64,000 bases of DNA, taken from Bernardetiaceae bacterium (GTDB lineage Bacteria > Bacteroidota > Bacteroidia > Cytophagales > Thermoflexibacteraceae). Shown piece after piece: positions 34,971-48,871 of the stretch. The stretch lies in assembly GCA_025056255.1 (NCBI GenBank), contig JANWVT010000001.1:248001-312000 (forward strand), written 5' to 3'. The notes beneath the pieces were generated by a model, which saw only the letters and a list, made by a program, of their open reading frames with translations, ran no database searches and was not told the origin of the DNA. Position numbers and translations under genes: made by a program. The number at the start of each line of letters is the position of its first letter. The stretch's first letter is position 1.

Positions 34971-35546
34971 GAGTGGTGCAAAAATTTTTAACGGTTTAAA
35001 GATAGGCTACAAAAACAAAACCATGAGTAAAATATTCAAGCATGACTTATTTCTTTGCTTAAACTGCTTGCTTTGCAGGTATGTTTTTGTGAAGGAGCGC
35101 GAGACTTATGTAAAACAGCTCAAAAACACATACACTATTAGTGGAGCCATCCAGAATGATAGTGATGCTAACTAGCAGCATAAGCCTTACGGTACGCATT
35201 GGTTATTGGCTCTGCCTTTATTATTGAAAACCAATCCATGTTCTCTGTTAAATAACTACTTACACGCCACACAAAGGCTTCCATCTCTCCAAATTAGGTT
35301 TTGAAAACCTATGGGGTGTGTTCGTAGTTACATCATATGACGACATTGAGCTAACGAAGGAGTCGAACTTGTAAGTAGAGTTAGTTGAGAGCTACTCGAC
35401 CGAGCAAAAAATTATTCCATGCCATACTATCATTTTTTTGCCTTGTTTTTAATAGATTGCGAATTGACTCGTTTGTAACAAATTATCACCCAAAAATAGT
35501 TAATCACATTAACTATTTTTCTCAACACACAACGTTTGTTAAAAAT
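34971..35546. other. Divergent intergenic region upstream of leuC
   Basis: About 575 nt. Contents: a short palindrome AGGTTTT-G-AAAACCT at 35296-35310; a 19-codon ORF at 35419-35478 that is rich in Phe and Tyr but not convincingly regulatory; TTTG at 35472-35475; and the 29-nt inverted repeat at 35492-35520. No protein-coding gene is credible. Confidence 0.6.
35492..35520 (+). promoter_or_regulatory. 29-nt operator-like inverted repeat upstream of leuC (site 1)
   Basis: Perfect 12-5-12 inverted repeat: AAAAATAGTTAA, spacer TCACA, TTAACTATTTTT, ending 26 nt before the leuC ATG. The same architecture recurs before ilvB (43705-43733), the DUF3598-like gene (61717-61745) and the methyltransferase operon (61055-61083). 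TTTG at 35472 lies 21 nt before the TAGTTAAT of the left arm, so the repeat likely covers the -7 region and would block transcription when bound. Confidence 0.65.
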
Positions 35547-36950
35547 ATGAAGCCTCGCACTTTATTCGACAAAATTTGGGATAGCCATGTTGTTACAAGT
35601 CGCCCCGGTCATCCTGATGTGTTGTATATAGACAAACATTTTATTCACGAAGTAACCAGTCCACAAGCTTTTGCAGGTTTGCGCAGGCGCGGGTTGCCCG
35701 TTTTCCGAACCAATCGCACTGTAGCCACTGCCGACCACAACGTACCTACCAAAGACCAACACCTGCCCATCAAAGATGCTCTTTCTCGCATGCAGGTAGA
35801 AACCCTGACAAAAAACTGCGCCGATTTTGGGATAGAACTCTATGGACTGGGGCATCCTTACCAAGGCATTGTACATGTCATTGGTCCTGAATTGGGCATC
35901 ACACAACCGGGCATGACTATTGTTTGCGGCGACAGCCATACTAGTACCCACGGTGCGTTCGGGACAATTGCCTTTGGTATTGGCACCAGTGAAGTAGAAC
36001 AAGTACTAGCCACACAGTGCATTTTGCAATACAAGCCCAAACGCATGAAGATAGAAGTGAATGGCACACTGGGCAAGGGCGTCACTTCCAAAGACATTAT
36101 TCTATACATCATATCCAAAATTTCGGCGGGTGGCGCTACAGGTTACTTCGTGGAGTATGCCGGCAGTGCCATCCGCTCACTCAGCATGGAAGCGCGCATG
36201 ACTATTTGCAACATGAGCATTGAAATGGGGGCGCGCGGCGGACTAATTGCCCCCGACCAAACTACCTTTGAATACCTCAAAGGCAGACCTTTTGCCCCCC
36301 AAGGCGAAGCGTGGGAGAAAGCCCTTGCCTACTGGCAAACCCTCTACACCGACGAAGAAGCTGAGTTTGACCGCGTGCTCACTTTTGATGCCGCCGATAT
36401 AGAACCCATGATTACCTATGGAACCAATCCCGGTATGGGCATCAAAATCACCGACCGCATCCCAACCGCAAATGAACTGGCTGATACTTCTGAACTTCCC
36501 TCTTTTCGCAAATCGTTGGAATACATGGGTTTGCGCGAAGGCGCCCCCATTAAAGGGCAGCCGGTAGATTATGTGTTTATTGGTTCCTGCACCAACTCTC
36601 GCATAGAAGACTTGCGGCAAGTAGCCGCCTTTGTAAAAGGAAAGAAAAAAGCACCTCATGTAGAAGTCTGGGTTATTCCCGGCTCTCAACAGGTGAGAAA
36701 ACAGGCGCAAGCCGAAGGATTGGACAGAATTTTTGCCGAAGCGGGTTTTGAAATGCGCGGTGCAGGCTGCTCTGCTTGTCTGGGCATGAACGAAGACAAA
36801 ATTCCACCCGGAAAATACTGTATTTCCACCTCTAACCGCAACTTTGAAGGCAGGCAAGGACCAGGCGCAAGAACCTTTTTGGCAAGTCCGCTCTCTGCCG
36901 CCGCCGCCGCCATTACAGGCAGCGTAACCGATGTGCGGGAAATGTTGTAA
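35547..36950 (+). CDS. leuC: 3-isopropylmalate dehydratase large subunit
   Basis: A 467-residue aconitase-family protein starting [15 protein letters not shown]. The [4Fe-4S] ligands are visible as Cys in [11 protein letters not shown] and the CSAC pair in [14 protein letters not shown]; substrate residues include [22 protein letters not shown] and [12 protein letters not shown]. With LeuD it isomerises 2- to 3-isopropylmalate in leucine synthesis. The ATG at 35547 is the family start; an in-frame ATG at 35385 would lie upstream of the promoter-like elements. It heads the leu cluster, but a Uma2 gene and a small ORF separate it from leuD. Confidence 0.95.
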
Positions 36951-36985
36951 ATTGTTGTACCATCATCAGTGAAGCGCATAAACCC

Positions 36986-37570
36986 ATGACAGAGGCTATT
37001 ACCTTATCGTTCAAATCCAAAGGCGGACTTTCGCAAGATGAGTTTATGGAACTCTGTAAGGATAATCCCGACCTGAAATTTGAGCGCACATCCGAAGGAC
37101 AAATCATCATTATGCCGAATACAGGAGGACGAACGGGAAAAATCAATGCTCGCATCAATTACTTTTTGACGGGATGGAATTTAGCTACCAACTCAGGTGA
37201 AACGTTTGATTCATCCACCTCTTTTCGTCTGGCGAGTGGCGCGGTGCGTTCGCCCGATGCCGCATGGGTAGCCAAAGAGCGGTGGGAAAAATTATCAGAA
37301 CGCGAACAGCGACAGTTTCCCCCTCTTTGCCCTGATTTTATCATCGAGTTGCGCTCTGAATCGGATGCATTGAAAGAATTACAGCAAAAAATCACGGAAG
37401 ACTGGATAGGCAACGGCTGCCGTCTGGCATGGCTGATTGATACCGATGCGCAAACGGTTTACGTTTATCGTCCCAATGCTGCACCGGAAACGGTGCAGGG
37501 TTTCAATCAACGCCTTAGCGGCGGAGAGGTGCTGCCCGGCTTTGAGTTAGACCTTTCGCAGTTGCAATGA
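36986..37570 (+). CDS. Uma2 family endonuclease inserted in the leu cluster
   Basis: A 194-residue Uma2 (DUF820) protein with LKFERTSEGQIIIMPNTGG, FDSSTSFRLASGAVRSPDAAWV (SPDAAW with the metal-binding Asp), CPDFIIELRSESDALKELQQK with PDFxxELRSxSD, and GCRLAWLIDTDAQTVYVYRP. All active-site positions of the PD-(D/E)XK-like fold appear present. It lies 35 nt after leuC on the same strand and overlaps the next ORF by 4 nt. A role in leucine synthesis is unlikely; its position suggests insertion of a mobile or scattered gene family. It differs strongly from the Uma2 protein at 7224-7823. Confidence 0.82.
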   Translation: MTEAITLSFKSKGGLSQDEFMELCKDNPDLKFERTSEGQIIIMPNTGGRTGKINARINYFLTGWNLATNSGETFDSSTSFRLASGAVRSPDAAWVAKERWEKLSEREQRQFPPLCPDFIIELRSESDALKELQQKITEDWIGNGCRLAWLIDTDAQTVYVYRPNAAPETVQGFNQRLSGGEVLPGFELDLSQLQ

Positions 37571-37812
37571 AGCAAGTGTTTCAAATATACCAATTCGTAC
37601 GCATCTACTTGCTCATGCTTGCCCTAATAGCTGCGAGTTTTGCGCTGCCAAAGCAAAGCGCTGCTCAGACTGTTGCAGCCCAAATGATAGAACAAGAACC
37701 GGTTGGTATCAACGGGGCACTTGCCACAGTTTCACGTCAATATTGCCTTAATGAGCTTAGCAGTTTTACCTCAATTCAACTGGCTTACTACAAAAAATGT
37801 AAATTTTGGTAA
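37567..37812 (+). CDS. Small secreted hypothetical protein
   Basis: An 81-residue ORF with an apparent signal peptide (YLLMLALIAASFALPKQSAAQ) followed by about 45 residues with no recognisable domain, ending YYKKCKFW. Its ATG overlaps the stop of the Uma2 gene (ATGA), which supports translation by coupling. It lies 28 nt before leuD. I do not recognise it; it may also be a truncated remnant of a longer secreted protein. Confidence 0.4.
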   Translation: MKQVFQIYQFVRIYLLMLALIAASFALPKQSAAQTVAAQMIEQEPVGINGALATVSRQYCLNELSSFTSIQLAYYKKCKFW

Positions 37813-37840
37813 TGCATTGCTATCATTAAACTTGTAAACC

Positions 37841-38440
37841 ATGCAAAAATTCACCACACTGATAAGTACCGCCGTGCCTTTGGCAGTGGAAAACATAGAC
37901 ACCGACCAAATTATTCCGGCGCGATTTCTGAAAGCCACTACTCGCGAAGGCTTTGGTGAAAACCTGTTCCGCGATTGGCGATATAATCCCGACGGCAGCC
38001 CCAAACCCGACTTTGTGCTGAACAACCCGCAATACAAAGGCGAAATATTGGTAACAGGCAAAAACTTTGGCTGCGGCAGCAGTCGCGAGCATGCTGCATG
38101 GGCAATTGCCGACTACGGCTTCCGCGTGGTAGTATCCAGCTTTTTTGCCGATATTTTTAAAAACAACGCACTGAACAATGGTATTCTGCCGGTAGTTGTT
38201 TCGGATGCCTTCCTGAAAAAACTGTTTGCAGCCATTGAATCCCATCCGCAAACGCAAATTGAAGTCAATTTGGAGCAGCAAACCATTACCCTTTTAGAAG
38301 ACGGTTCGCAAGAGTCATTCGACATCAACCCCTATAAAAAAACATGCCTGATAAATGGCTATGACGATATAGACTACTTGCTTTCACTCAAAGCAGAAAT
38401 TGAAGCATTTGAAAATGGAAGACTAACAGGGCAGGTATAG
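37841..38440 (+). CDS. leuD: 3-isopropylmalate dehydratase small subunit
   Basis: A 199-residue swivel-domain protein with the diagnostic [14 protein letters not shown] near the N-terminus and [20 protein letters not shown], and the C-terminal NIPY-like [20 protein letters not shown]. It forms the isopropylmalate isomerase with LeuC. Length is normal for the family. leuB begins 99 nt downstream. Confidence 0.94.
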
Positions 38441-38539
38441 CAAATTGACAGCGAAACACACATCAATATACATCCAATAAACACACATAACTCACCTTTA
38501 CTTTTTCCGATGTATCCAAAATGAGGTATACCTGATTTC

Positions 38540-39640
38540 ATGTCTCAACAAATTTTGATTATCCCCGGCGACGGCATTGGGGCAGAAGTAACCGAATGGG
38601 GCAAGCAAACACTGCAAACCATTGGCGAAATTTTCGGTCATCGTTTCACCTTCGACTATGCCCTGCTGGGTCATGCAGCCATAGAAGCGACAGGCTCGCC
38701 ACTGCCAGAGGAAACCCTTGCCAAAGCCCGACAGTCGGCAGCTATTTTGTTCGGTGCCATTGGGCATCCTAAGTACGACAACGATCCCTCTGCCAAAGTG
38801 CGCCCCGAACAGGGTTTGCTTGGCTTGCGAAAAGCACTGGGGCTATACTGCAACATTCGCCCGATTCAGTTGTTTGACGAACTCATCGGCGCTTCCAGCT
38901 TGAAACCCGAAGTGCTGCGTGGTGCGGACATCCTCTTTTTCCGCGAACTGACGGGCGATGTGTATTTTGGGCAGCCTCGTGGGCGTACCGAAGACGGATT
39001 AACTGCCTACGACACCATGATTTACAGCAAGTACGAGGTAGAACGCATCGCCCGCAAAGCATTTGAAGCCGCCCGATTGCGTCGCAAAAAAGTTCATTCG
39101 GTAGACAAAGCCAATGTGTTAGATAGCAGCCGCCTTTGGCGAGAAACCGTCAACGAAGTAGCCCAAGATTACCCCGATGTAGCCTTGCACCACATGTTCA
39201 TTGACACTGCCGCCATGGCACTCATCAAAGACCCGCGCCAGTTTGACGTAGTGCTGACGGGCAACTTGTTCGGCGACATCCTCACCGATGAGGCTTCTCA
39301 AATTGCAGGCTCTATGGGCATGTTGGCTTCGGCTTCCATTGGCGACAGCACAGGCTTTTACGAACCTATTCACGGTTCGGCGCCCGACATTGCAGGCAAA
39401 GGCATTGCCAACCCTATGGCAAGTATCCTTTCAGCAGGCATGTTGCTTTCCTATGCCTTTGGGCTACACACCGAAGCAGCAATAGTGCAAAAAGCAGTTG
39501 CGCTTACACTTAAACAAGGCTGGCGCACAGGTGACATAGCAGACAGCCGCACACCGAGCAATTACATATTGGGCACTGCCGAAATCGGTAGCAAAATCAT
39601 TGAAAACATCATTGAGATAACACAGGCAGTAGCCGCATAA
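38540..39640 (+). CDS. leuB: 3-isopropylmalate dehydrogenase
   Basis: A 366-residue beta-decarboxylating dehydrogenase with IPGDGIGAEVTEWG, the substrate loop LFFRELTGDVYFG, KVHSVDKANVLDSSRLWRE (Lys catalytic), LTGNLFGDILTDEASQIAGS and the NAD-binding EPIHGSAPDIAGKGIANP. It oxidises and decarboxylates 3-isopropylmalate to 4-methyl-2-oxopentanoate. leuA follows after 49 nt on the same strand. Confidence 0.95.
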   Translation: MSQQILIIPGDGIGAEVTEWGKQTLQTIGEIFGHRFTFDYALLGHAAIEATGSPLPEETLAKARQSAAILFGAIGHPKYDNDPSAKVRPEQGLLGLRKALGLYCNIRPIQLFDELIGASSLKPEVLRGADILFFRELTGDVYFGQPRGRTEDGLTAYDTMIYSKYEVERIARKAFEAARLRRKKVHSVDKANVLDSSRLWRETVNEVAQDYPDVALHHMFIDTAAMALIKDPRQFDVVLTGNLFGDILTDEASQIAGSMGMLASASIGDSTGFYEPIHGSAPDIAGKGIANPMASILSAGMLLSYAFGLHTEAAIVQKAVALTLKQGWRTGDIADSRTPSNYILGTAEIGSKIIENIIEITQAVAA

Positions 39641-39689
39641 TACTTCGCTAATCCAAACTCTGGTCATCTATTATTAAAAAAATAAGCAA

Positions 39690-40853
39690 ATGAATAATCG
39701 AGTCTATGTGTTTGACACCACGCTGCGCGATGGAGAGCAGGTACCGGGCTGCCAGTTGAACACGCAGGAAAAAATTATGGTTGCCCGTGAATTGGAAGCA
39801 CTGGGCGTAGATATTATTGAAGCAGGTTTCCCGATTTCCAGCCCTGAGGATTTCCGTTCAGTGCAGGAAATTTCCAAAGCGGTGACTGAGCCCATTATTT
39901 GCGGGCTGAGTCGTGCCGTAGAAAAGGACATCAAAACTGCAGCCGAAGCCCTGCAATATGCCAAACGCAAGCGCATTCATACAGGGCTGGGAGCTTCAGA
40001 TTTCCACATTGAGCACAAGTTTCGCTCTACCCGCGAAGAAATGCTAGAACGTGCCGTTCGTGCTGTGAAATATGCCAAATCTTTTGTAGAAGATGTAGAG
40101 TTCTTTGCCGAAGATGCTGGACGTGCCGACCCTATTTATTTGGCGCAAATGATTGAGCTAGTCATTGCAGCAGGAGCTACAGTAGTGAATATTCCCGACA
40201 CAACGGGCTACTGTTTGCCACATGAATATGGCGCTAAAATTAAGTATTTGGTGGAAAACGTAAAGTCTATTGATAAAGTTACCATTTCGGTACATTGTCA
40301 TAATGACTTGGGACTGGCTACTGCCAACTCGTTATATGGACTCATCAATGGGGCACGCCAAGTAGAATGCACCATTAACGGTATTGGCGAGCGAGCAGGG
40401 AATACTTCTCTGGAAGAAATTGTCATGATTTTGAAAACACACAAATACCTTGGGCTTGAAACCAACATCAAAACACCACAGCTCGGTCCGCTGAGCAAGC
40501 TCGTGTCCCGATTGATGCGAATGCCCGTACAACCTAACAAAGCTATTGTGGGAGCAAATGCTTTTGCGCATTCTTCTGGTATTCATCAAGACGGCGTGCT
40601 TAAACACCGCGAAAACTACGAAATTATAGACCCTGCCGATGTGGGTGCTGGTAGCAGTAGCATTGTACTTACCGCCCGCAGTGGACGCGCTGCACTAAAT
40701 TATCGCTTAGAAAATCTCGGATTCAAGCTAGACCGCGCCGAGTTAGATTTAGCTTACGAAAAGTTTCTCATTATGGCAGACGAGTACAAAAACATCAACG
40801 ACGAACACTTGCTGCAACTAATGGAAAAAATGCGCTTGAAAGCTGAGGTTTAA
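39690..40853 (+). CDS. leuA: 2-isopropylmalate synthase, short form
   Basis: A 387-residue HMGL-like TIM-barrel enzyme with the metal/substrate motifs [13 protein letters not shown] at the N-terminus, [15 protein letters not shown] (HxH) and [14 protein letters not shown], and a linker region containing [20 protein letters not shown]. It condenses acetyl-CoA with 3-methyl-2-oxobutanoate. The C-terminal allosteric LeuA domain of about 120 residues present in E. coli-type enzymes (about 520 residues) is absent: the chain ends after the linker. Leucine feedback inhibition at the protein would then be weak or lacking. Citramalate or homocitrate synthase activity is a possible alternative, but the gene context favours LeuA. 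Confidence 0.9.
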
Positions 40854-40868
40854 ATCTTAACAAAAAAC

Positions 40869-40891
40869 AATCCCAAAACTTTTGGATTTTT
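40869..40891 (+). terminator. Weak terminator-like hairpin after leuA
   Basis: ATCC-CAAAA and TTTT-GGAT form a small stem with one bulged base, followed by TTTTTC, 16 nt after the leuA stop. It overlaps the -33 element of the next promoter. Confidence 0.35.
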
Positions 40892-40913
40892 CAATAGAAA
40901 ATGCCTAAATTTG
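40881..40913 (+). promoter_or_regulatory. Promoter of the ilvE-ilvD(-BN) operon
   Basis: TTTG at 40881-40884, 21-nt spacer, TAAATTTG at 40906-40913: an exact match to both Bacteroidota promoter elements. Transcription should begin near 40919, about 12 nt before the leader-peptide ATG at 40932. Confidence 0.75.
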
Positions 40914-40931
40914 AGCAAATTGATAACGCAA

Positions 40932-40991
40932 ATGCTTCTTTACGCATTTATTATCGTGCTAGTCATTATTCTTACGCCGCTTGTCGGATGA
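40932..40991 (+). CDS. Branched-chain amino acid leader peptide (attenuator ORF)
   Basis: A 19-codon ORF translating to MLLYAFIIVLVIILTPLVG, stop TGA at 40989-40991. Twelve of 19 residues are Leu (5), Ile (4) or Val (3), including the runs IIVLVIIL. It starts about 12 nt after the predicted transcription start and its last codons lie inside the antiterminator arm (40983-40995). Ribosomes slowed by a shortage of charged Leu, Ile or Val tRNA would leave that arm free; ribosomes reaching the stop would cover it. This is the arrangement of ilvL/leuL leaders in enteric bacteria, though the peptide itself is not similar. A 5' hairpin (GATAA..AAATGC with GCATTT..TTATC, 40922-40955) covers the start codon and may serve as pause signal. 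Confidence 0.75.
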   Translation: MLLYAFIIVLVIILTPLVG

Positions 40992-41050
40992 GAAGCAGCA
41001 CGGTATGCGTTTAAATAGCAAGCCTTTTCATCCGACCGATGGAAAGGCTT
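40983..41050 (+). promoter_or_regulatory. Transcription attenuator: alternative antiterminator and terminator
   Basis: Antiterminator: GTCGGATGAGAAG (40983-40995) pairs over 13 positions, with one G-U pair, with CTTTTCATCCGAC (41024-41036). Terminator: AAGCCTTTTCATC (41020-41032) pairs over 13 positions, with one G-U pair, with GATGGAAAGGCTT (41038-41050), loop CGACC, followed by GTTTGTTTGG. The two structures share 41024-41032 and cannot coexist. The first arm overlaps the leader stop codon, so the position of the ribosome decides between them. The U-tract is interrupted by G, so termination may be partial. Confidence 0.75.
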
Positions 41051-41083
41051 GTTTGTTTGGTCACTTATCAAAATCATACAACC

Positions 41084-41974
41084 ATGTACTATAACGACAA
41101 AACGGTATCGTTTTTTGATGGCAAATTTGTAAAAAGTAAAGAGATAGCGATTAGCCCTTTTGCGCAAACGCTGCACTATGGACTAGGAGTATTCGAAGGA
41201 CTAAAAGCCTACCAAACACAGCACGGTGTCCGCATTTTCAAGCCAACAGAGCATTTTACACGCATGAAAAAAACAGCAGAAGCGCTGCATCTGCCATTTG
41301 ATTACGACATTGCTGAATTGGAAGAAATTGCATACGAACTTTTAGAGCGTAACAAGTTCAAAAATGCGTACATCCGCCCAATACTCATTGCAGCCGACAA
41401 TATGGGTTTGCTAACGGGAGGAGATACAAAACTGTTCATGGCAACTTGGAAGTGGCCTCGTTACCTCGGCGACCGACTGCTTAACACTTGCATTAGTTCA
41501 TACAGGCGCATTCATGCCCAGTCGTTACCTGTTGTAGGCAAAATTACAGGATGCTATGTTCCCAACATCATGGCAAGTACCGATGCCAAACAGCGCGGCT
41601 TCGACGAGGCTATCATGCTAGATGAAAACGGCTACGTAGCACAAGCGCCCGGCTCTAACATCTTTATTGAAAAAGAAGGCGTGCTAATTACGCCTCCTTT
41701 GGGCAATATTATGCCCGGCATTACACGTGCCACAGTCATAGAAATAGCCAAAAGCCTGAAAATAGAAGTGTTTGAGCGCGTTATTACCATAGAAGAATTG
41801 TTAGAAGCCGATGCTGCTATCTTTACTGGAACGGCAACCGAAATAGTAGGCATTGCTTCTGTAGAAGGCACTGCTCTTAAATTGCTCTTCGACAAATCAC
41901 AATGCGCGCGCATTGCGGAGGCATATAACGAATTGGTACATTCTGTTCACGAACCAGCCTATACAATTATCTGA
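41084..41974 (+). CDS. ilvE: Branched-chain amino acid aminotransferase
   Basis: A 296-residue fold-type IV PLP enzyme starting [15 protein letters not shown], with [15 protein letters not shown], the PLP-binding Lys in [33 protein letters not shown], and the phosphate-binding [10 protein letters not shown] and [11 protein letters not shown]. It makes Leu, Ile and Val from their 2-oxo acids. The stretch [12 protein letters not shown] has Gln where most family members have the Glu that contacts the PLP ring nitrogen. ATG 41084 is used because the in-frame ATG at 41039 lies within the terminator hairpin. The stop overlaps the ilvD start (TGATG). Confidence 0.92.
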
Positions 41975-43665
41975 TGGAACTCAATAAATTTAGCCGCACT
42001 TTTACACAAGACGAAAGCCTGCCTGCTGCCAAAGCTATGCTCTACGGCATAGGGCTTACCGATGAAGACATGAACAAAGCCCAAATTGGCATTGCCAGCA
42101 CCGGCTATGAGGGCAACACTTGCAATATGCACCTCAATGCACTTGCCATGCGAGTGAAGGCAAGTATCAACGCCACTAACCAACTCATCGGACTTACTTT
42201 TAATACCATTGGCGTATCGGATGGCATGACTAATGGCACTGATTGGATGCGCTACTCGCTGCCCAGCCGCGACGTAATTGCCGACTCCATCGAAACCATC
42301 GTAGGTGGGCAATGCTACGACGGCGTAGTAGCACTTGTCGGCTGCGACAAGAATATGCCCGGTGCCATGATTGCCATCGGCAGACTGAACCGTCCCGCCA
42401 TTGTTGTGTACGGTGGCACTATCAACTCCGGTCGCTACGACTACGGGCAGTACAAAGGCAAAAAATTGGATATTATCTCGGTTTTTGAAGCTTATGGAAA
42501 AAAAGTTGCCGGAACCATTACCGATGAAGAATACAAAGGCGTAATTAAAAATGCCATTCCGGGTGCAGGTGCTTGTGGCGGCATGTACACCGCCAACACT
42601 ATGGCAACAGCTATTGAAGCCTTGGGCATGAGCCTTCCTAACAGCAGCTCCTTCCCTGCTGTTAGCCCTATGAAGCACGCCGAGTGCGACCAAATCGGGC
42701 AAACAATGCTCCGCGCCTTAGAGTTAGACCTCAAACCCCGCGACATCATGACCTTTGAAGCCTTCGAAAATGCTATCACCATGGTCATGGCATTGGGCGG
42801 CTCTACCAATGCAGTGCTACACTTAATAGCAATGGCAAAAGCAGTAGGCGTAAAGCTCACTCTTGCCGATTTTCAACGCATCAGCGACCGCACACCCTAC
42901 CTTGCCGATTTGAAACCAAGCGGCAAATACATGATGGAAGACCTCTGTAATGTGGGCGGCGTACAAGCAGTAATGAAAATGCTCCACGCCGAAGGACTCA
43001 TCCACGGCAACTGTATGACCATCACAGGCAAAACGATTGCAGAAAATCTCGCTAATTCATCGGGTTTACAAGAAGGACAAGATATTATTCGCCCACTTAA
43101 CAACCCTATCAAAGCCTCAGGGCACATCCAAATTTTATATGGCAACCTTGCTCCTCAAGGCGCTGTAGCCAAAATTACAGGCAAAGAGGGCGAACGCTTT
43201 CAAGGAAAAGCACGTGTGTACGACTCAGAACAAGCCTTGAACGAAGGCATTGCCAAACAAGAAATACAACCCGGCGATGTAGTGGTTATTCGCTACTGCG
43301 GACCCAAAGGCGCACCCGGCATGCCCGAAATGCTCAAACCCACTTCTGCCATCATGGGAGCCGGATTGGGTGACAAGGTAGCCCTTATTACCGACGGACG
43401 TTTCTCGGGCGGTACGCATGGCTTTGTAGTAGGACACATTACACCAGAGGCACAAGTAGGCGGACCTATTGCCCTTGTCCGCAATGGCGATACCATTTTA
43501 ATAGATGCCGTCAATCGACGCTTAGAGGTGTTGGTAAGCGATGAAGAACTTGCCCAACGCCGCCAAGACTGGCAAATGCCACCCTACAAAGTCCAAAACG
43601 GAGCACTCTGGAAATACATTAAAAATGTAAGCTCTGCTTCCGAGGGCTGCGTTACCGACGCCTAA
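41974..43665 (+). CDS. ilvD: Dihydroxy-acid dehydratase
   Basis: A 563-residue IlvD/Edd protein with [36 protein letters not shown] and NTCNMHLN; the three Cys (in [15 protein letters not shown] and GACGGMYTA) are the iron-sulphur ligands. It dehydrates 2,3-dihydroxy-3-methylbutanoate and its homologue in Val and Ile synthesis. Its ATG overlaps the ilvE stop. ilvB follows after 79 nt that contain an operator-like repeat. Confidence 0.95.
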
Positions 43666-43704
43666 TAACCAACAAGCGTGTATGCTTAGAGAAAGTCATA
43701 GCAA

Positions 43705-43733
43705 AAAAATAGTTAATTATATTAATTAATTTT
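43705..43733 (+). promoter_or_regulatory. 29-nt operator-like inverted repeat upstream of ilvB (site 2)
   Basis: AAAAATAGTTAA, spacer TTATA, TTAATTAATTTT: the left arm is identical to the leuC site, the right arm matches at 10 of 12 positions. It ends 11 nt before the first possible ilvB ATG at 43745. Confidence 0.6.
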
Positions 43734-43744
43734 CACAATAACAT

Positions 43745-45514
43745 ATGGGAATGCTTTTGCAGCAAGAGGCTGAAACATCAACAGCCTTCCATACACAAAC
43801 CCTCATGGGCGAATGTGTAATAGCAAAAAAGGGCATCAGTGGTGCCGAAGCGGTAGTGCTGTCTCTACTAGCTGAGGGAGTAGAGTGTGTATTTGGCTAT
43901 CCGGGTGGGGCTATTATGCCTGTTTACGATGCGCTGTATGACTACCGCGACCGCTTGCAGCATTTCTTGGTACGCCACGAACAAGGAGCGGCACATGCGG
44001 CACAAGGTTACGCAAGAGTGCAGCGGCGTGCGGGTGTCTGCATGGCAACCTCCGGACCGGGTGCCACCAACCTCATCACAGGCATTGCCGATGCCATGAT
44101 TGACTCTACCCCAATTGTTTGCATCACAGGGCAAGTAGGAAAACACCTGCTCGGAACAGATGCCTTTCAAGAAACTGACGTGATTGGTATTTCGATGCCC
44201 ATTACAAAGTGGAATTATCAGGTTACGCGTGCCGAAGAAATCCCTGAGGCTATTGCAAAAGCATTTTACATTGCCCAAAGCGGGCGCCCCGGTCCGGTGT
44301 TGATAGACATCACTAAAAATGCACAAACCGAAATATTCGACTTCCAATACCGCAAGTGCCTGAAAATTCGCAGCTACTTCCCTAAGCGCAAGGTAGATAT
44401 AGATGCCATCCAACGAGCTGCCGAGTTGATTAATCGTGCCGAGCGCCCCTTTATGCTCATTGGGCAAGGCGTGATTCTATCTGGCGCGCAAGACGACGTG
44501 AAAGAGATGGCTGAAAAAGCTGGCATTCCTGTAGCCAGCACCTTACTAGGACTTTCTGCTATGAGCGTGCACCACCCCCAATACGTAGGATACTTGGGCA
44601 TGCACGGCAACTACGGACCTAACGTGCTCACGAACCAATGCGACGTACTTATTGCCATAGGTATGCGATTTGACGACCGCGTTACAGGGCGATTAGACAG
44701 CTATGCCAAACAAGCCAAAGTCATTCACATTGAAATTGACCCTGCTGAAATCGATAAAAACGTCAAAACAGAAGTAGCTATTGTTGCCGATGCAAAAGAA
44801 GCCTTGCAAGCCTTGCTACCCCTGTTAGAAATTAAACGCTACCCTGAATGGATGGCAAAATTCAAAGAATGCGATGCCATAGAGCGCGAAAAAGTAATAC
44901 TGAAAGATTTTGCCCCCACTACGCCACTTCCCAAAATGGCAGAGGTGATCCACATGCTTTCTCAAAAAACGAAAGGGAAAGCCATTATTGCTACCGACGT
45001 AGGGCAACACCAAATGATGGCAACACGCTACTATCAATTTGATGAGCCATACAGCAATATTACTTCTGGTGGACTGGGTACAATGGGCTTTTGCCTGCCA
45101 GCAGCCATTGGTGCCAAAATAGGCAAACCCAACCGCGAAGTGATTGCCATTATTGGCGACGGCGGCTTTCAGATGACTATACAAGAGTTGGGCGTCATTA
45201 TGCAGTATAACATACCCGTGAAAATAATGGTATTGAACAACAACTTTTTGGGTATGGTGCGCCAATGGCAGCAACTGTTTTTTGACCGTCGCTATTCAAG
45301 TGTAGATATGCAAAATCCCGACTTCGTTAAGTTAGCAGAAGCATATCGCATACCGGCACGTCGCGTGGAAACGCGTGAACAACTGAGCGATGCCTTAGAT
45401 GAGATGCTCCATAGCCAATCAGCTTTCTTTTTAGAAGTGATGGTCGAAAAAGAAGACAACGTATTCCCAATGGTGCCTGCAGGTGCTGCTGTTGCCGAAA
45501 TCCGATTAGAATAG
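43745..45514 (+). CDS. ilvB: Acetolactate synthase large (catalytic) subunit
   Basis: A ThDP-dependent enzyme of 589 residues from the first ATG. It shows GISGAEAVVLSLLAEGVECV, the catalytic Glu in VRHEQGAAHAAQGYAR, CMATSGPGATNLITGIADAM, and the ThDP motif GDGGFQMTIQELGVIMQYNI ending in LNNNFLGMVRQWQ. It condenses pyruvate with pyruvate or 2-oxobutanoate. The start is uncertain: the first ATG lies only 11 nt after the operator-like repeat, and a methionine at 43805 (MGECVIAKKG) fits family length better. ilvN follows after 52 nt. Confidence 0.94.
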   Translation: MGMLLQQEAETSTAFHTQTLMGECVIAKKGISGAEAVVLSLLAEGVECVFGYPGGAIMPVYDALYDYRDRLQHFLVRHEQGAAHAAQGYARVQRRAGVCMATSGPGATNLITGIADAMIDSTPIVCITGQVGKHLLGTDAFQETDVIGISMPITKWNYQVTRAEEIPEAIAKAFYIAQSGRPGPVLIDITKNAQTEIFDFQYRKCLKIRSYFPKRKVDIDAIQRAAELINRAERPFMLIGQGVILSGAQDDVKEMAEKAGIPVASTLLGLSAMSVHHPQYVGYLGMHGNYGPNVLTNQCDVLIAIGMRFDDRVTGRLDSYAKQAKVIHIEIDPAEIDKNVKTEVAIVADAKEALQALLPLLEIKRYPEWMAKFKECDAIEREKVILKDFAPTTPLPKMAEVIHMLSQKTKGKAIIATDVGQHQMMATRYYQFDEPYSNITSGGLGTMGFCLPAAIGAKIGKPNREVIAIIGDGGFQMTIQELGVIMQYNIPVKIMVLNNNFLGMVRQWQQLFFDRRYSSVDMQNPDFVKLAEAYRIPARRVETREQLSDALDEMLHSQSAFFLEVMVEKEDNVFPMVPAGAAVAEIRLE

Positions 45515-45566
45515 GAATTTAATGTACGATGGCAAAAACATTTAGTCAACAAATCAACACGCTGCT

Positions 45567-46118
45567 ATGCAAGCCTTAGAAGGAAACCAACAACGATATA
45601 CTATCTCTATTTTCACTGAAGACAAGGTAGGGCTTTTGAGTCGAATTACAGGTATCTTCACGCGCCGCAAAATTAACGTGGACAGCCTAACGGTTTCAGA
45701 AACTGAAAACAAAGGCATCAGTCGTTTTACGGTTGTTATCCGTACGCTTCCAGAGCGCATTGGCGTAATTGTGCGGCAAATAGAAAAACAAGTAGAAGTG
45801 CTCAAAGCTTTTTATTATACCGACGAGCAGATTGTTTATCAAGAATTAGCCCTTTATAAAATGCCGACAGAAGCTTTTGCTGGCAGTCAGGCAGTAGAAA
45901 AAATTATCCGCGACAATTATGCACGCGTTATTACCATTGAACCCGAATTTATTGTAATTGAAAAAACAGGACACGAAGAGGAAACTACCAAGCTATTCAA
46001 TGAATTGAAACCCTACGGGGTGCTGAGTTTTGTTCGCTCTGGTAGAATTGCTATTGCTAAACCCATGAAGTTGCTGAAAGTGCATTTGGAAGAGTTGGAA
46101 AATATTTCAGAATTTTAA
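45567..46118 (+). CDS. ilvN: Acetolactate synthase small (regulatory) subunit
   Basis: A 183-residue protein with an N-terminal ACT domain (about 8-80: YTISIFTEDKVGLLSRITGI, FTRRKINVDSLTVSETENKG) and a C-terminal ALS_ss_C domain (about 95-175). ACT domains of this subunit usually bind valine and impose feedback inhibition on IlvB. It ends the ilv cluster and is followed by a clear terminator. ilvC is not in this window. Confidence 0.93.
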   Translation: MQALEGNQQRYTISIFTEDKVGLLSRITGIFTRRKINVDSLTVSETENKGISRFTVVIRTLPERIGVIVRQIEKQVEVLKAFYYTDEQIVYQELALYKMPTEAFAGSQAVEKIIRDNYARVITIEPEFIVIEKTGHEEETTKLFNELKPYGVLSFVRSGRIAIAKPMKLLKVHLEELENISEF

Positions 46119-46215
46119 TTGGCATTTGTTGCAGCTATTGGTTGCTCAGCAAGTTGTCCTACCTTGTTGAGAAAGCAAGCAAATTCTATTGTGTTTGAAA
46201 ACCCTCGTACTGCCC

Positions 46216-46246
46216 AACCTGACAGATTTCACCAACCTGTCAGGTT
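46216..46246 (+). terminator. Terminator of the ilv cluster
   Basis: Perfect 10-bp stem, AACCTGACAG and CTGTCAGGTT, 11-nt loop, followed by TATTTTATG. The stem belongs to a CCTGACAGGTT-like palindrome family seen several times in the window. Confidence 0.75.
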
Positions 46247-46364
46247 TATTTTATGAGCACCTAATTTAACAACCAAGTTGATTGCTATGCTAATAAGTTG
46301 CTTGTGAATGCATCCAACAATGGTAAGGTAAATATTTGCCAAACCACTTGAGTGTATGTCCGTA

Positions 46365-46430
46365 GCCTATGTCTTTGCAAGCAACAGATAGCTGCTTGCT
46401 GAACAACGGCGGAGGTTGAGGCACCCAACC
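46365..46430 (+). repeat. Possible diverged repeat, copy D
   Basis: TAGCCTATGTCTTTGCAAGC and CTGAACAACGGCGGAGGTT align in order with the core of copy C (CCTGTCCTACTTGCAAC, ACGAACAACGGCGAGTTT). The match is shorter and weaker than for copies A to C. Confidence 0.3.
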
Positions 46431-46477
46431 ACGGTGAGCACGCTTTCAATTACATGCTTTTGCATTTAGAATAAAAA

Positions 46478-48871
46478 ATGTATTTTCATAATACCAAGCT
46501 CATCACGCCTATGTTCCGAGTAGCTGGCTTCGGCAGCCTGATTTGGCTGTGGAGCTTTTGTTTATGGGCACAAACTACACAAATCCATTTTCTCTCAGGT
46601 ACGGACAAAGACAACCTCGTACAATGGGATTTTTGGATAGACAAGGGCAGAAAATCGGGTAACTGGCAGAAAATAAACGTTCCTTCGTGTTGGGAAACTG
46701 AAGGATTCGGCACAATAGCAGCGGTGGCTACTGCTAGTGAGCAAGGCATTTACAAGCATCAATTTATTGCACTGCCTCAATGGCAAGGAAAGCACGTTAG
46801 GATAGTATTTGAGGGCGTCCTTTCAGAAGCCACTGTTAAACTCAACGGCAAACTACTAGGCTCGCACAGAGGCGCTTATGAACCTTTTGCTTTCAATGTA
46901 TCTGACAAGTTGTTGTGGGGGGCAAGTAATGAATTGGAAATTGCCGTGCGCAAGCAGCAAGGAGCATCCGATTCGTGGAGCCTTGGCGGCATCTACAAGC
47001 CCGTCTATTTAGAAATACTACCACCTGTTCATATTACACAGCTCCTTGTTGATGCTCGCCAAAACGGAGAGTTGCAAGCACGCATATTGGTAAATCAACC
47101 AGCCAACACACAAGTAGTTGCCTACTTGAAAGACCAACACGGGCGCACCATTGGCGAACCACTGCAGAGCAGCGCTGCCCGTTTCTTCTCTGACCAACAC
47201 ATCGGGTTTGAACTAAACGCAACCTTTTCGGGTATTCAACCATGGTCTGCGGAGTTGCCACAGCGCTACCGGCTAACAGTAGAATTACAAAACGAACACG
47301 GCGCACTGTTGCACCAACTTTCCACTACTGTTGGGTTTCGCAGTGTAGTTGTACAGCGCAACAGGCTTTATCTTAACAACCAACCTGTACAATTACAAAC
47401 AGTGCAATACCGGGGCTTTTGGGTAGAAAGCGGCATTAGCGTCAGCAGGCAAATCAGCGAGTTAGACGGGCTGCTGCTTAAAGAAATGAATGCCAACTCT
47501 GTTTACCAACCACTCTATACGCCCGACTCACACTTTCTCGATGTATGCGACTCCTTAGGGCTGTATCTTATTTGCCAAGTGCCTAAAGCCCTAACAGAAC
47601 TAACCTTGCCTGTAACCAACCACCCTTGCCTGATTCTGCTCACTGACAATACCAATCAACCAGACTGGGTGCCGCAAGCTGTACTACCCCCAAATGCCCT
47701 ACATGTTGTTAGTGAAGTGTCCAAATTAAGTGATGCGTTCATCAAAGCAACATGGGAGGCTACTTTGAAAGGCAACAAATGGGGGATGCTATTGCCCTAT
47801 TTTGCCGAAGAATCGCTGAAAGACGAGAACGGCAAGCTGCTTAGGCAAGCAAGTACTGAACAGGTAGGTTTCGTAGATGCTTATCACAAACCCCAAGCCC
47901 TATACCACGCTGTAAGAGATTGGTGGTCGCCGGTGCAACTTCGCAGCGAGCACTCCCACGGACGTTTTCAAGGCACACTAATAGCAGAGAATCGTTTCAG
48001 TTTTACCAATTTAAATCAATGTAGAATTACTTGGCAACTTGCCAAAGTGATATTTCCCTCCGACAGAACCTCTACCGGAGATTTACAAATTCTTGCAAGT
48101 GGTATTGCATCTTCGCCCAACATTGCGCCCGGTACAGCTGATAAACTACTGCTCAATTTGCCTAATGATTGGCAAAATAACGACCTGCTAATAGTTAGCA
48201 TCGCCACTTCGCTAGGCAATGAGATTTGTACAAAACACTTCCCCATTACCAGCCCTGAAAACTACTTACCACAATGGTGGCTGGGCGAATTTACCAACAG
48301 CTCGCTGGTGCACAAAACGGAAACCGGATGGGAACTTTCCAACGAGGAACTAAAAATTATTGTGCATCCTCACGGGCATCTTCTGCAAATCAACTCACCT
48401 ACTCAAAATCATCAGATAATCGGCGGAGTGCCAATTGGCGAGCAGCCCGTTGAAGTTCGCAAAGAAGCAGAAGGCACATTACTATTTCGCTTTGCGGCGT
48501 CTTCGCCCGTCCAATGGATTAGTTATGCCTTGTCAGATGCAGGCGTGCTGCGCATACAGTATGCAGGCAAGCAAGTAGGCTTTTTGTTCAATGGCAACCT
48601 ACAAGTATTTAGCGCGTACGCTGTCGGTCTGCCGTCGGCAGGTATCACAGCAGGTGCATCACTCAACTTGATTCGGCAGAAAAATGCCCGTTGGCAAGGT
48701 AACTACCAACAGTTGTACTGGGCAAAATGGCAAACAGACAACTATTCGTTGACCATTATGGCTGGCAGTAGCGATGTACTGATGCAAATGCTAGCAGAGA
48801 GCCACTTGCTAATTGCTCCTTCGGCTCAGTTGCCCGCACCTGTTACCTTGTATTTGAAAACAGAAAACTAA
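46478..48871 (+). CDS. GH2-like (beta-galactosidase fold) protein, probably catalytically inactive
   Basis: A 797-residue secreted protein. After a signal peptide (an ATG at 46511 is an alternative start) it has the GH2 jellyroll (VPSCWETEGFG, GIYKHQFIALPQWQGKHVRI, SHRGAYEPFAFNVSDKL, SWSLGGIYKPVYLEI), an Ig-like domain, a strongly shortened TIM barrel (about 310-490) and a beta-galactosidase small-chain-like C-terminus (about 615-795). In the barrel, PLYTPDSHFLDVCDSLGLYL matches the GH2 strand before the active site, but the following NHPCLILLTDNTNQPDW replaces the usual NHPSIIxWSLGNE, so the acid/base Glu is gone, and no second catalytic Glu region is recognisable. Sugar binding without hydrolysis is possible. 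Confidence 0.7.
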   Translation: MYFHNTKLITPMFRVAGFGSLIWLWSFCLWAQTTQIHFLSGTDKDNLVQWDFWIDKGRKSGNWQKINVPSCWETEGFGTIAAVATASEQGIYKHQFIALPQWQGKHVRIVFEGVLSEATVKLNGKLLGSHRGAYEPFAFNVSDKLLWGASNELEIAVRKQQGASDSWSLGGIYKPVYLEILPPVHITQLLVDARQNGELQARILVNQPANTQVVAYLKDQHGRTIGEPLQSSAARFFSDQHIGFELNATFSGIQPWSAELPQRYRLTVELQNEHGALLHQLSTTVGFRSVVVQRNRLYLNNQPVQLQTVQYRGFWVESGISVSRQISELDGLLLKEMNANSVYQPLYTPDSHFLDVCDSLGLYLICQVPKALTELTLPVTNHPCLILLTDNTNQPDWVPQAVLPPNALHVVSEVSKLSDAFIKATWEATLKGNKWGMLLPYFAEESLKDENGKLLRQASTEQVGFVDAYHKPQALYHAVRDWWSPVQLRSEHSHGRFQGTLIAENRFSFTNLNQCRITWQLAKVIFPSDRTSTGDLQILASGIASSPNIAPGTADKLLLNLPNDWQNNDLLIVSIATSLGNEICTKHFPITSPENYLPQWWLGEFTNSSLVHKTETGWELSNEELKIIVHPHGHLLQINSPTQNHQIIGGVPIGEQPVEVRKEAEGTLLFRFAASSPVQWISYALSDAGVLRIQYAGKQVGFLFNGNLQVFSAYAVGLPSAGITAGASLNLIRQKNARWQGNYQQLYWAKWQTDNYSLTIMAGSSDVLMQMLAESHLLIAPSAQLPAPVTLYLKTEN

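Follow-up and report, generated by a model that had tools for sequence, protein, structure and literature searches.

In the attenuators that act on branched-chain amino acid (BCAA) operons in enteric bacteria, the leader peptide is rich in BCAA, the RNA is divided into segments 1–4, the antiterminator and the terminator are mutually exclusive, BCAA genes lie downstream and the codons of the leader are biased. Bacteroidetes/Chlorobi are reportedly among the groups for which candidate attenuators were given by Vitreschak et al. in 2004. The enteric attenuators of ilvGMEDA, ilvBN and the leu operon are named in the accessible part of PMC1183508, and the ilvBNC leader of Corynebacterium and a leucine-rich attenuator peptide of Staphylococcus aureus appear in excerpts of PMC11857589, PMC10272879 and PMC5794164. 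Within Bacteroidota, an excerpt of the 2021 transcriptome study of Flavobacterium psychrophilum mentions 'strong clues' that amino-acid operons are attenuated through leader peptides (PMC9723704), and an excerpt on Bacteroides thetaiotaomicron describes long 5' UTRs with sORFs that are 'reminiscent of leader peptides' (PMC7366714). Our literature search, which had most subscription journals outside it, gave nothing closer in the phylum than these two and no attenuator report for Cytophagales. The author of a preliminary description of the present DNA was not aware of an established attenuator of this type in Cytophagales; for the order this agrees with our search, but the phylum has its precedent in F. 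psychrophilum, as far as the excerpt goes.

Here, we analyse the region between leuA and ilvE in one member of the Cytophagales and propose that a ribosome-mediated transcription attenuator controls ilvEDBN, to which reading, as judged from the sequence, we assign a probability of about 0.9. The proposal rests on the sequence, the helices, their conservation, their covariation and the placement of the codons, which are presented in turn.

The leuA–ilvE gap and its elements

The window (the whole stretch of 64,000 nucleotides, or 64 kb, that was analysed) is part of a genome of 3.39 Mb in 107 contigs. The nearest named relative found, with records of the genome itself possibly absent, is the Bernardetiaceae MAG SKYG34 (IlvE identity 76%), followed by Thermoflexibacter ruber (IlvE 53%) and then by other Cytophagales. 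Upstream of the gap lie leuC, a Uma2-family gene, leuD, leuB and leuA, ending at 40853, and the attenuator region is the 230-base gap from this end to the start of ilvE at 41084; the genes 3' of it, ilvEDBN, are those of BCAA synthesis. The features are as follows.

40881..40913, + strand: Bacteroidota-type promoter TTTG-N21-TAAATTTG (-33/-7); motif match, near-copies in congeners
40932..40991, + strand: leader peptide ORF MLLYAFIIVLVIILTPLVG, ATG at 40932, stop TGA at 40989-40991; corresponding leaders in relatives
40942..41010, + strand: candidate segment 1:2 (protector/pause) hairpin; MFE fold, leader codons pairing with the region of the stop codon ahead of the synthesis of arm 3
40950..40973, + strand: control run, eight BCAA codons in a row (I I V L V I I L); masking test, position profile over 62 elements
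40983..40995, + strand: antiterminator 5' arm (segment 2), across the leader stop codon; repeat search, duplex test, covariation
41024..41036, + strand: antiterminator 3' arm (segment 3), within the terminator 5' arm and loop; repeat search, duplex test, covariation
41020..41050, + strand: intrinsic terminator hairpin (segments 3:4), arms 41020-41032/41038-41050, tail TTGTTTGTTTGG; fold, repeat search, covariation
41084..41974, + strand: ilvE, branched-chain amino acid transaminase; NCBIfam TIGR01122 above cut-off, start by homology
41974..43665, + strand: ilvD, dihydroxy-acid dehydratase; profile match
43745..45514, + strand: ilvB, acetolactate synthase large subunit; profile match
45567..46118, + strand: ilvN, acetolactate synthase small subunit; profile match

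Three observations on the leu genes are noted beside these. The Uma2-family gene (PF05685, putative endonuclease) at 36986-37570 lies between leuC and leuD; inspection by eye of the DNA 5' of leuC in the window gave no leader; and LeuA (39690-40853) has 387 residues, covering positions 4-384 of the 516 of the best 2-isopropylmalate synthase model, with no C-terminal regulatory domain in Pfam, a form that would fit a loss of leucine feedback.

The exact TTTG-N21 promoter motif that had been claimed is present at its place, with TTTG at 40881-40884, 21 bases and TAAATTTG at 40906-40913, and near-copies stand at the same position in the congeners L002 and L003 (TAnnTTTG) and L004 (one mismatch). 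By itself the motif was rejected as a signal, there being 5 matches versus 3.61 expected in the 64 kb, which is not significant, and the strict form TAnnTTTG being present no more than 90 nt from the leader ATG at only 34 of the 138 leader loci described below. Because the spacing between the -7 element and the transcription start is 4-5 nt according to the accessible part of PMC6847099, transcription would start at about 40917-40919, which would put the 5' end of the RNA about 13-15 nt before the leader AUG. The leader itself is exactly as had been claimed, with 19 codons of which 12 are for L, I or V, and it is strongly hydrophobic. On reading the window sequence, no Shine-Dalgarno-like sequence is seen 5' of its ATG. 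An A at -3, the preference described for F. johnsoniae in an excerpt of PMC6847099, is present in 81 of the 138 leaders, while the window's own leader has C.

Chance would rarely give such an arrangement. An ORF in which L/I/V number at least 9 and make up at least 60% arises in 2 of 4000 dinucleotide shuffles of 40854-41083, and in 0 of 4000 when a terminator has to follow; on both strands of the 64-kb window there are three short ORFs with at least 7 and 50% L/I/V, and only the leader ORF has a terminator 3' of it. The repeat search recovered, where they had been placed, the two competing helices of 13 positions, the first arm of which lies over the leader stop codon: the antiterminator 40983-40995/41024-41036 (13 nt, 92% complementary) and the terminator, found here as 41019-41032/41038-41051 (14 nt, 93% complementary). 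In the 13-position form (terminator arms 41020-41032/41038-41050), each of the two helices has one G-U pair. In the MFE fold the terminator reaches to about 41012-41059. Its tail is imperfect, the U-tract of TTGTTTGTTTGG being broken by a G. It is the longest (16 pairs) of the 11 terminator-like stems in 35000-47000, a region in which such stems overall are in no excess (11 found versus 15.2 expected). The folding of the gap region has a z of -4.19, with 0 of 200 shuffles equally good.

A structured 5' leader with competing helices could also be expected of a leader that senses a metabolite or a protein (a riboswitch, a T-box or the target of an RNA-binding protein), with the ORF being accidental. 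The amino-acid leader families of Rfam include those of Leu, His, Thr, Trp and others. The search with Rfam 15 gave 0 matches at the gathering score over the 64 kb, amino-acid leaders, T-box and riboswitches included, and at E <= 10 within 40850-41090 it gave only three microRNA families, which were taken as chance, their scores being far under gathering. With no family at the gathering score and nothing credible below it, and with the relatives sharing a run of BCAA codons whose place ahead of the arm is fixed, we regard such a sensing leader as extremely improbable.

Conservation and covariation at ilvE loci

IlvE of this type (E <= 1e-55) is present in 79 of the 390 genomes of the order, and in each of these the DNA 5' of ilvE was read; together with 80 named Bacteroidota loci this gives 159 ilvE loci, with ten loci of more distant transaminases (L021-L030) standing outside the counts. 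BCAA content alone was rejected as too weak a signal, a score of at least 3 being reached at 39 of the 159 loci on the forward versus 14 on the reverse strand, and the terminator and its position were therefore added to the filter, which takes an ATG start, 9-42 codons, at least 6 and 33% L/I/V, and a terminator of <= -8 kcal/mol starting no more than 110 nt after the stop. A leader with a terminator is found by this filter in 138 of the 159 ilvE upstream regions. As controls, the reverse strand gives 14, three rounds of shuffles give 4, 4 and 2, and the hisG/trpE regions give 4 of 59. When the filter is tightened, 84 of 159 pass, versus 1 (reverse), 0, 0 and 0 (shuffles) and 2 of 59 (hisG/trpE). 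Conservation in relatives of the short BCAA-rich ORF and of the pairing, the check proposed in the preliminary description, is thus borne out, both by the 138 of 159 loci and by the compensatory changes given below. Examples of the leaders are MLFNIVVLVIILLPIVG and MFFRNVIMVLVILLTPLG in congeners, MNLISTALIIVIINVILLLIIQRDKAL in Pedobacter, MASLFLLLLIVVIVVKPAGAMVI in Chryseolinea, MNNIINIIIVIIIVIISSPPS in Tenacibaculum and MNKCTVIITVVIITCLSG in Roseivirga. Across these loci the terminator stem mostly lies 20-45 nt downstream of the first base of the leader stop codon.

The 21 loci of the 159 that fail the filter include L005, L007 and L012 (the window's family has this IlvE in 9 genomes, of which these are 3), and L051, L088 and L100, which look divergent or GTG-started. 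In a survey of the wider phylum anchored on ilvD, a leader is present at 17 of the 70 loci examined out of 211 genomes with a match, and some ilvD loci without a leader have ilvE 5' of ilvD as in the window (L170). For L011 and L060, two BCAA leaders together with two tandem terminators are noted before ilvE, as if the switch had been duplicated.

Since leuA ends at 40853, just 5' of the element, where a terminator would be ordinary, it is conceivable that the hairpin is simply the 3' terminator of the leu operon, that the ORF is there by chance and that ilvE is read from its own promoter. The 33 nt between the terminator and the start of ilvE, however, contain no match to the promoter pattern, and therefore the ilvE transcripts must cross the terminator. 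Moreover, leuA lies 5' of the leader at only 5 of the 138 leader loci (all in the window's genus, where one genome enters twice), any tested leu or ilv gene lies upstream at 21 of the 138, and at 136 of the 138 ilvD lies 3' of ilvE in the stretch examined; the element thus belongs to ilv, not to leu. We consider a mere leu terminator very unlikely.

It could also be thought that the ORF, with its 19 strongly hydrophobic residues, encodes a small membrane protein with its own function. The composition of the leaders, in which the filter itself selects for I, L and V, gives shares of 0.209, 0.154 and 0.128 for I, L and V but of only 0.026, 0.027, 0.010 and 0.008 for F, A, M and W. With I, L and V alone enriched and the other four scarce, this is not mere hydrophobicity. 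Furthermore, the length and sequence of the leaders differ widely among genera, whereas the position of the codons relative to the arm is kept. The chance of a functional membrane protein is, in our estimate, negligible.

For the pairing, the loci were reduced by shared 8-mers to 79 non-redundant elements, because named loci duplicate others (L004/L090, L006/L091). Over these 79, the stretch around the stop codon forms with the 5' arm and loop of the terminator a duplex of -16.5 kcal/mol on average, compared with -10.7 kcal/mol for foreign partners and -5.8 kcal/mol for the stretch before the ATG. Against shuffles, the antiterminator has z <= -2 in 62 of the 79 and z <= -3 in 40; an element's own partner is better than 95% of the foreign ones in only 32 of the 79. 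In segment 1:2, the MFE fold pairs at least 60% of the arm with the upstream leader in 57 of the 62 elements with z <= -2, but the z of this fold is <= -2 in only 16 of the 62.

The covariation was counted on six rows, the window element and five relatives (alignment A5), with the structure of the first row being the one tested; rows L034, L039, L151 and L079 of the wider alignment A3 were left out of the count because the pairing registers of A3 lie one column apart in some rows. In the antiterminator 92.3% of the cells are paired, with 4 pairs changed on both sides, and sliding it by 1-3 columns lowers this to 39.7-61.5%; the pair of columns 19/56 is broken in 3 of the 6 rows. In the terminator 93.5% of the cells are paired, with 3 double-changed pairs and slid controls of 34.8-57.7%. 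In alignment A4 (14 rows) the terminator varies little, with double changes in 2 of 15 predicted pairs, both outside the terminator. With the conserved ORF, the terminator, the competing antiterminator and the compensatory changes, the attenuator reading of the preliminary description is supported.

Ribosome position, codon choice and a proposed mechanism

We consider a ribosome whose masking extends 11 or 14 nt beyond the point where the A-site codon starts, both footprints being assumed. The full antiterminator is then left for codons up to 40971 (11 nt) or 40968 (14 nt), and it is wholly removed from 40980 (11 nt) or 40977 (14 nt) on. All 8 codons of the run 40950-40973 are permissive with the 11-nt footprint and the first 7 with 14 nt, and with these footprints a ribosome at the leader stop codon masks the antiterminator arm while a stall in the BCAA run frees it. 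Once arm 4 is present, 13 of 13 terminator pairs are formed at every ribosome position (about -24.5 versus -22.0 kcal/mol); the terminator being the better equilibrium fold at every position, the antitermination must therefore be kinetic.

The same ruler is seen in the relatives. The fraction of BCAA codons in the 62 elements with z <= -2 is 0.72-0.95 over the positions 4-11 codons ahead of the arm, and it is 0.45 at 3 codons, 0.10 at 2, 0.21 at 1 and 0.09 at 0. This profile is partly tied to the stop codon, since the search for the arm began 14 nt ahead of the stop. When the codons of the 79 elements are counted from the stop instead, the profile is less sharp than the arm-based one: the fraction is 0.77-0.82 at 7-9 and at 11-13 codons, with 0.72 at 10, and the last three codons have 0.11-0.20.

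The codons themselves are also biased. Of the 235 Val codons in the 79 leaders, 110 (0.47) are GTC, versus 0.10 in ilvE of the same loci; this share exceeds that of the locus's own ilvE at 62 loci and falls below it at 6. CTA and ATT are raised too. The octamer GTCATTAT occurs in 35 of the 79 leaders, 41 times and always in frame, the window's copy being at 40962-40969. When the codons before the arm are recoded synonymously at random, the mean of the segment 1:2 fold goes from -20.8 (native) to -17.1 (Wilcoxon p 1.4e-7), with the native z <= -1 in 37 of the 62 elements and > 0 in 11; since the fold is weakened by the recoding, the pairing may explain part of the codon bias. By analogy with E. 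coli, for the leader codons of which sensitivity to starvation for isoacceptors is argued in the accessible part of PMC1183508, the rest of the bias could be explained in the same way. GUC in the leaders may be the most starvation-sensitive codon or a builder of segment 1:2. It is also noted that the 64-kb window as a whole has 7 copies of GTCATTAT versus 1.51 expected, with 0 of 100 shuffles as high, and that the 37 matches to tRNA genes in the genome (G000, L299-L333) give tRNA-Val with anticodon TAC only and no GAC, from a list that is incomplete because tRNA-Ile(GAT) is also missing.

We propose the following pathway, in which translation of the leader, stalling of the ribosome, the response to amino acids and antitermination by timing are all inferred from the arrangement described above. 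When charged tRNA-Leu, tRNA-Ile and tRNA-Val are plentiful, the ribosome would run to the stop codon at 40989 and cover the arm 40983-40995; with this arm covered, the terminator 41020-41050 would form and halt the RNA polymerase before ilvE. Should any of the three tRNAs run short in its charged form, the ribosome would stall in the run 40950-40973, leaving segment 2 free, and the free arm 40983-40995 would pair with 41024-41036 as soon as the latter is made and before segment 4 is, with the polymerase then reading into ilvEDBN. Without any translation of the leader, segment 1:2 and the terminator would both fold, and because they can form together in this way the operon would be off by default.

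It may be argued, on the other hand, that the leader acts on ilvE by translational coupling or reinitiation and not by termination. An excerpt of PMC4833913 gives a peak of 11-14 bp for the distance from leader gene to structural gene in Bacteroidetes and argues that leader genes very close to the structural gene act in this manner. In the window, by contrast, the leader stop ends 92 nt before ilvE and the terminator lies between (in the 138 relatives, the terminator follows the leader by construction of the filter). We give coupling very little weight, and attenuation by termination is the reading kept in what follows.

Breadth and comparison with known systems

Candidate leaders of other kinds are observed in the relatives. 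Upstream of hisG, His-rich short ORFs (for example MTSLFTTLHHHHHTCPRGRLLAYVL) stand before a terminator-like hairpin at 6 of 29 loci (L202, L213, L215, L216, L225 and L226), of which L215 has scattered His and no HHH, and L216 and L226 are without an ATG start; the antiterminator test centred on the stop gives z <= -2 in only 1 of the 5 his rows tested. Upstream of trpE, short ORFs with WW or WWW (for example MIKLNTTAWWWHGFRLNRWTIML) stand before a terminator-like hairpin at 14 of 30 loci (L231, L235, L236, L238, L239, L241, L243, L246, L247, L249, L250, L252, L254 and L255), with z <= -2 in 3 of the 14 trp rows in the same test, which failed in the other 11. No His or Trp leader is seen before hisG or trpE in the window's genus.

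It seems fairly probable to us that ribosome-mediated attenuators are widespread in Bacteroidota, on ilv genes and, with leaders carrying His or Trp runs, before hisG and trpE of other genomes in the order, and that they are worked by ribosomes without Shine-Dalgarno pairing. If this is true, translation of the leader would be expected to begin promptly at a 5' end that is short and rich in A, with ribosome and RNA polymerase moving in step in Bacteroidota. With dozens of diverse elements that share one layout, Bacteroidota offer a natural probe of the coupling of transcription to translation without Shine-Dalgarno initiation, and the 79 non-redundant elements suffice to seed an RNA family.

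The mechanism itself is that of the textbook, and the element is less new than the preliminary description supposed; what is new is the case in Cytophagales, the breadth, and a ribosome ruler in bacteria without Shine-Dalgarno initiation. With regard to the precedents, the ilv leader peptides of Corynebacterium and S. aureus, as the excerpts on them go, are likewise BCAA leader peptides on ilv genes outside Proteobacteria, but belong to other phyla. The sORFs of B. thetaiotaomicron are of the same phylum and lie in 5' UTRs, whereas the example given in the excerpt, BT_4401, is a hypothetical gene and not a BCAA operon. F. psychrophilum comes closer, being a member of Bacteroidota with amino-acid operons, a leader peptide and a structured 5' region as here, and with transcripts mapped there; it differs in belonging to Flavobacteriaceae and not to Cytophagales, and the passage of PMC9723704 names no operon. 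Finally, the window element is like the enteric attenuators of ilvGMEDA, ilvBN and leu in its BCAA-rich leader, its segments 1–4, its mutually exclusive helices, the BCAA genes 3' of it and its codon bias. Unlike them, it has a Bacteroidota-type promoter, no Shine-Dalgarno-like sequence and no match to an Rfam leader family, its antiterminator arm straddles the stop codon, and the terminator stem mostly lies 20-45 nt beyond the stop codon's first base.
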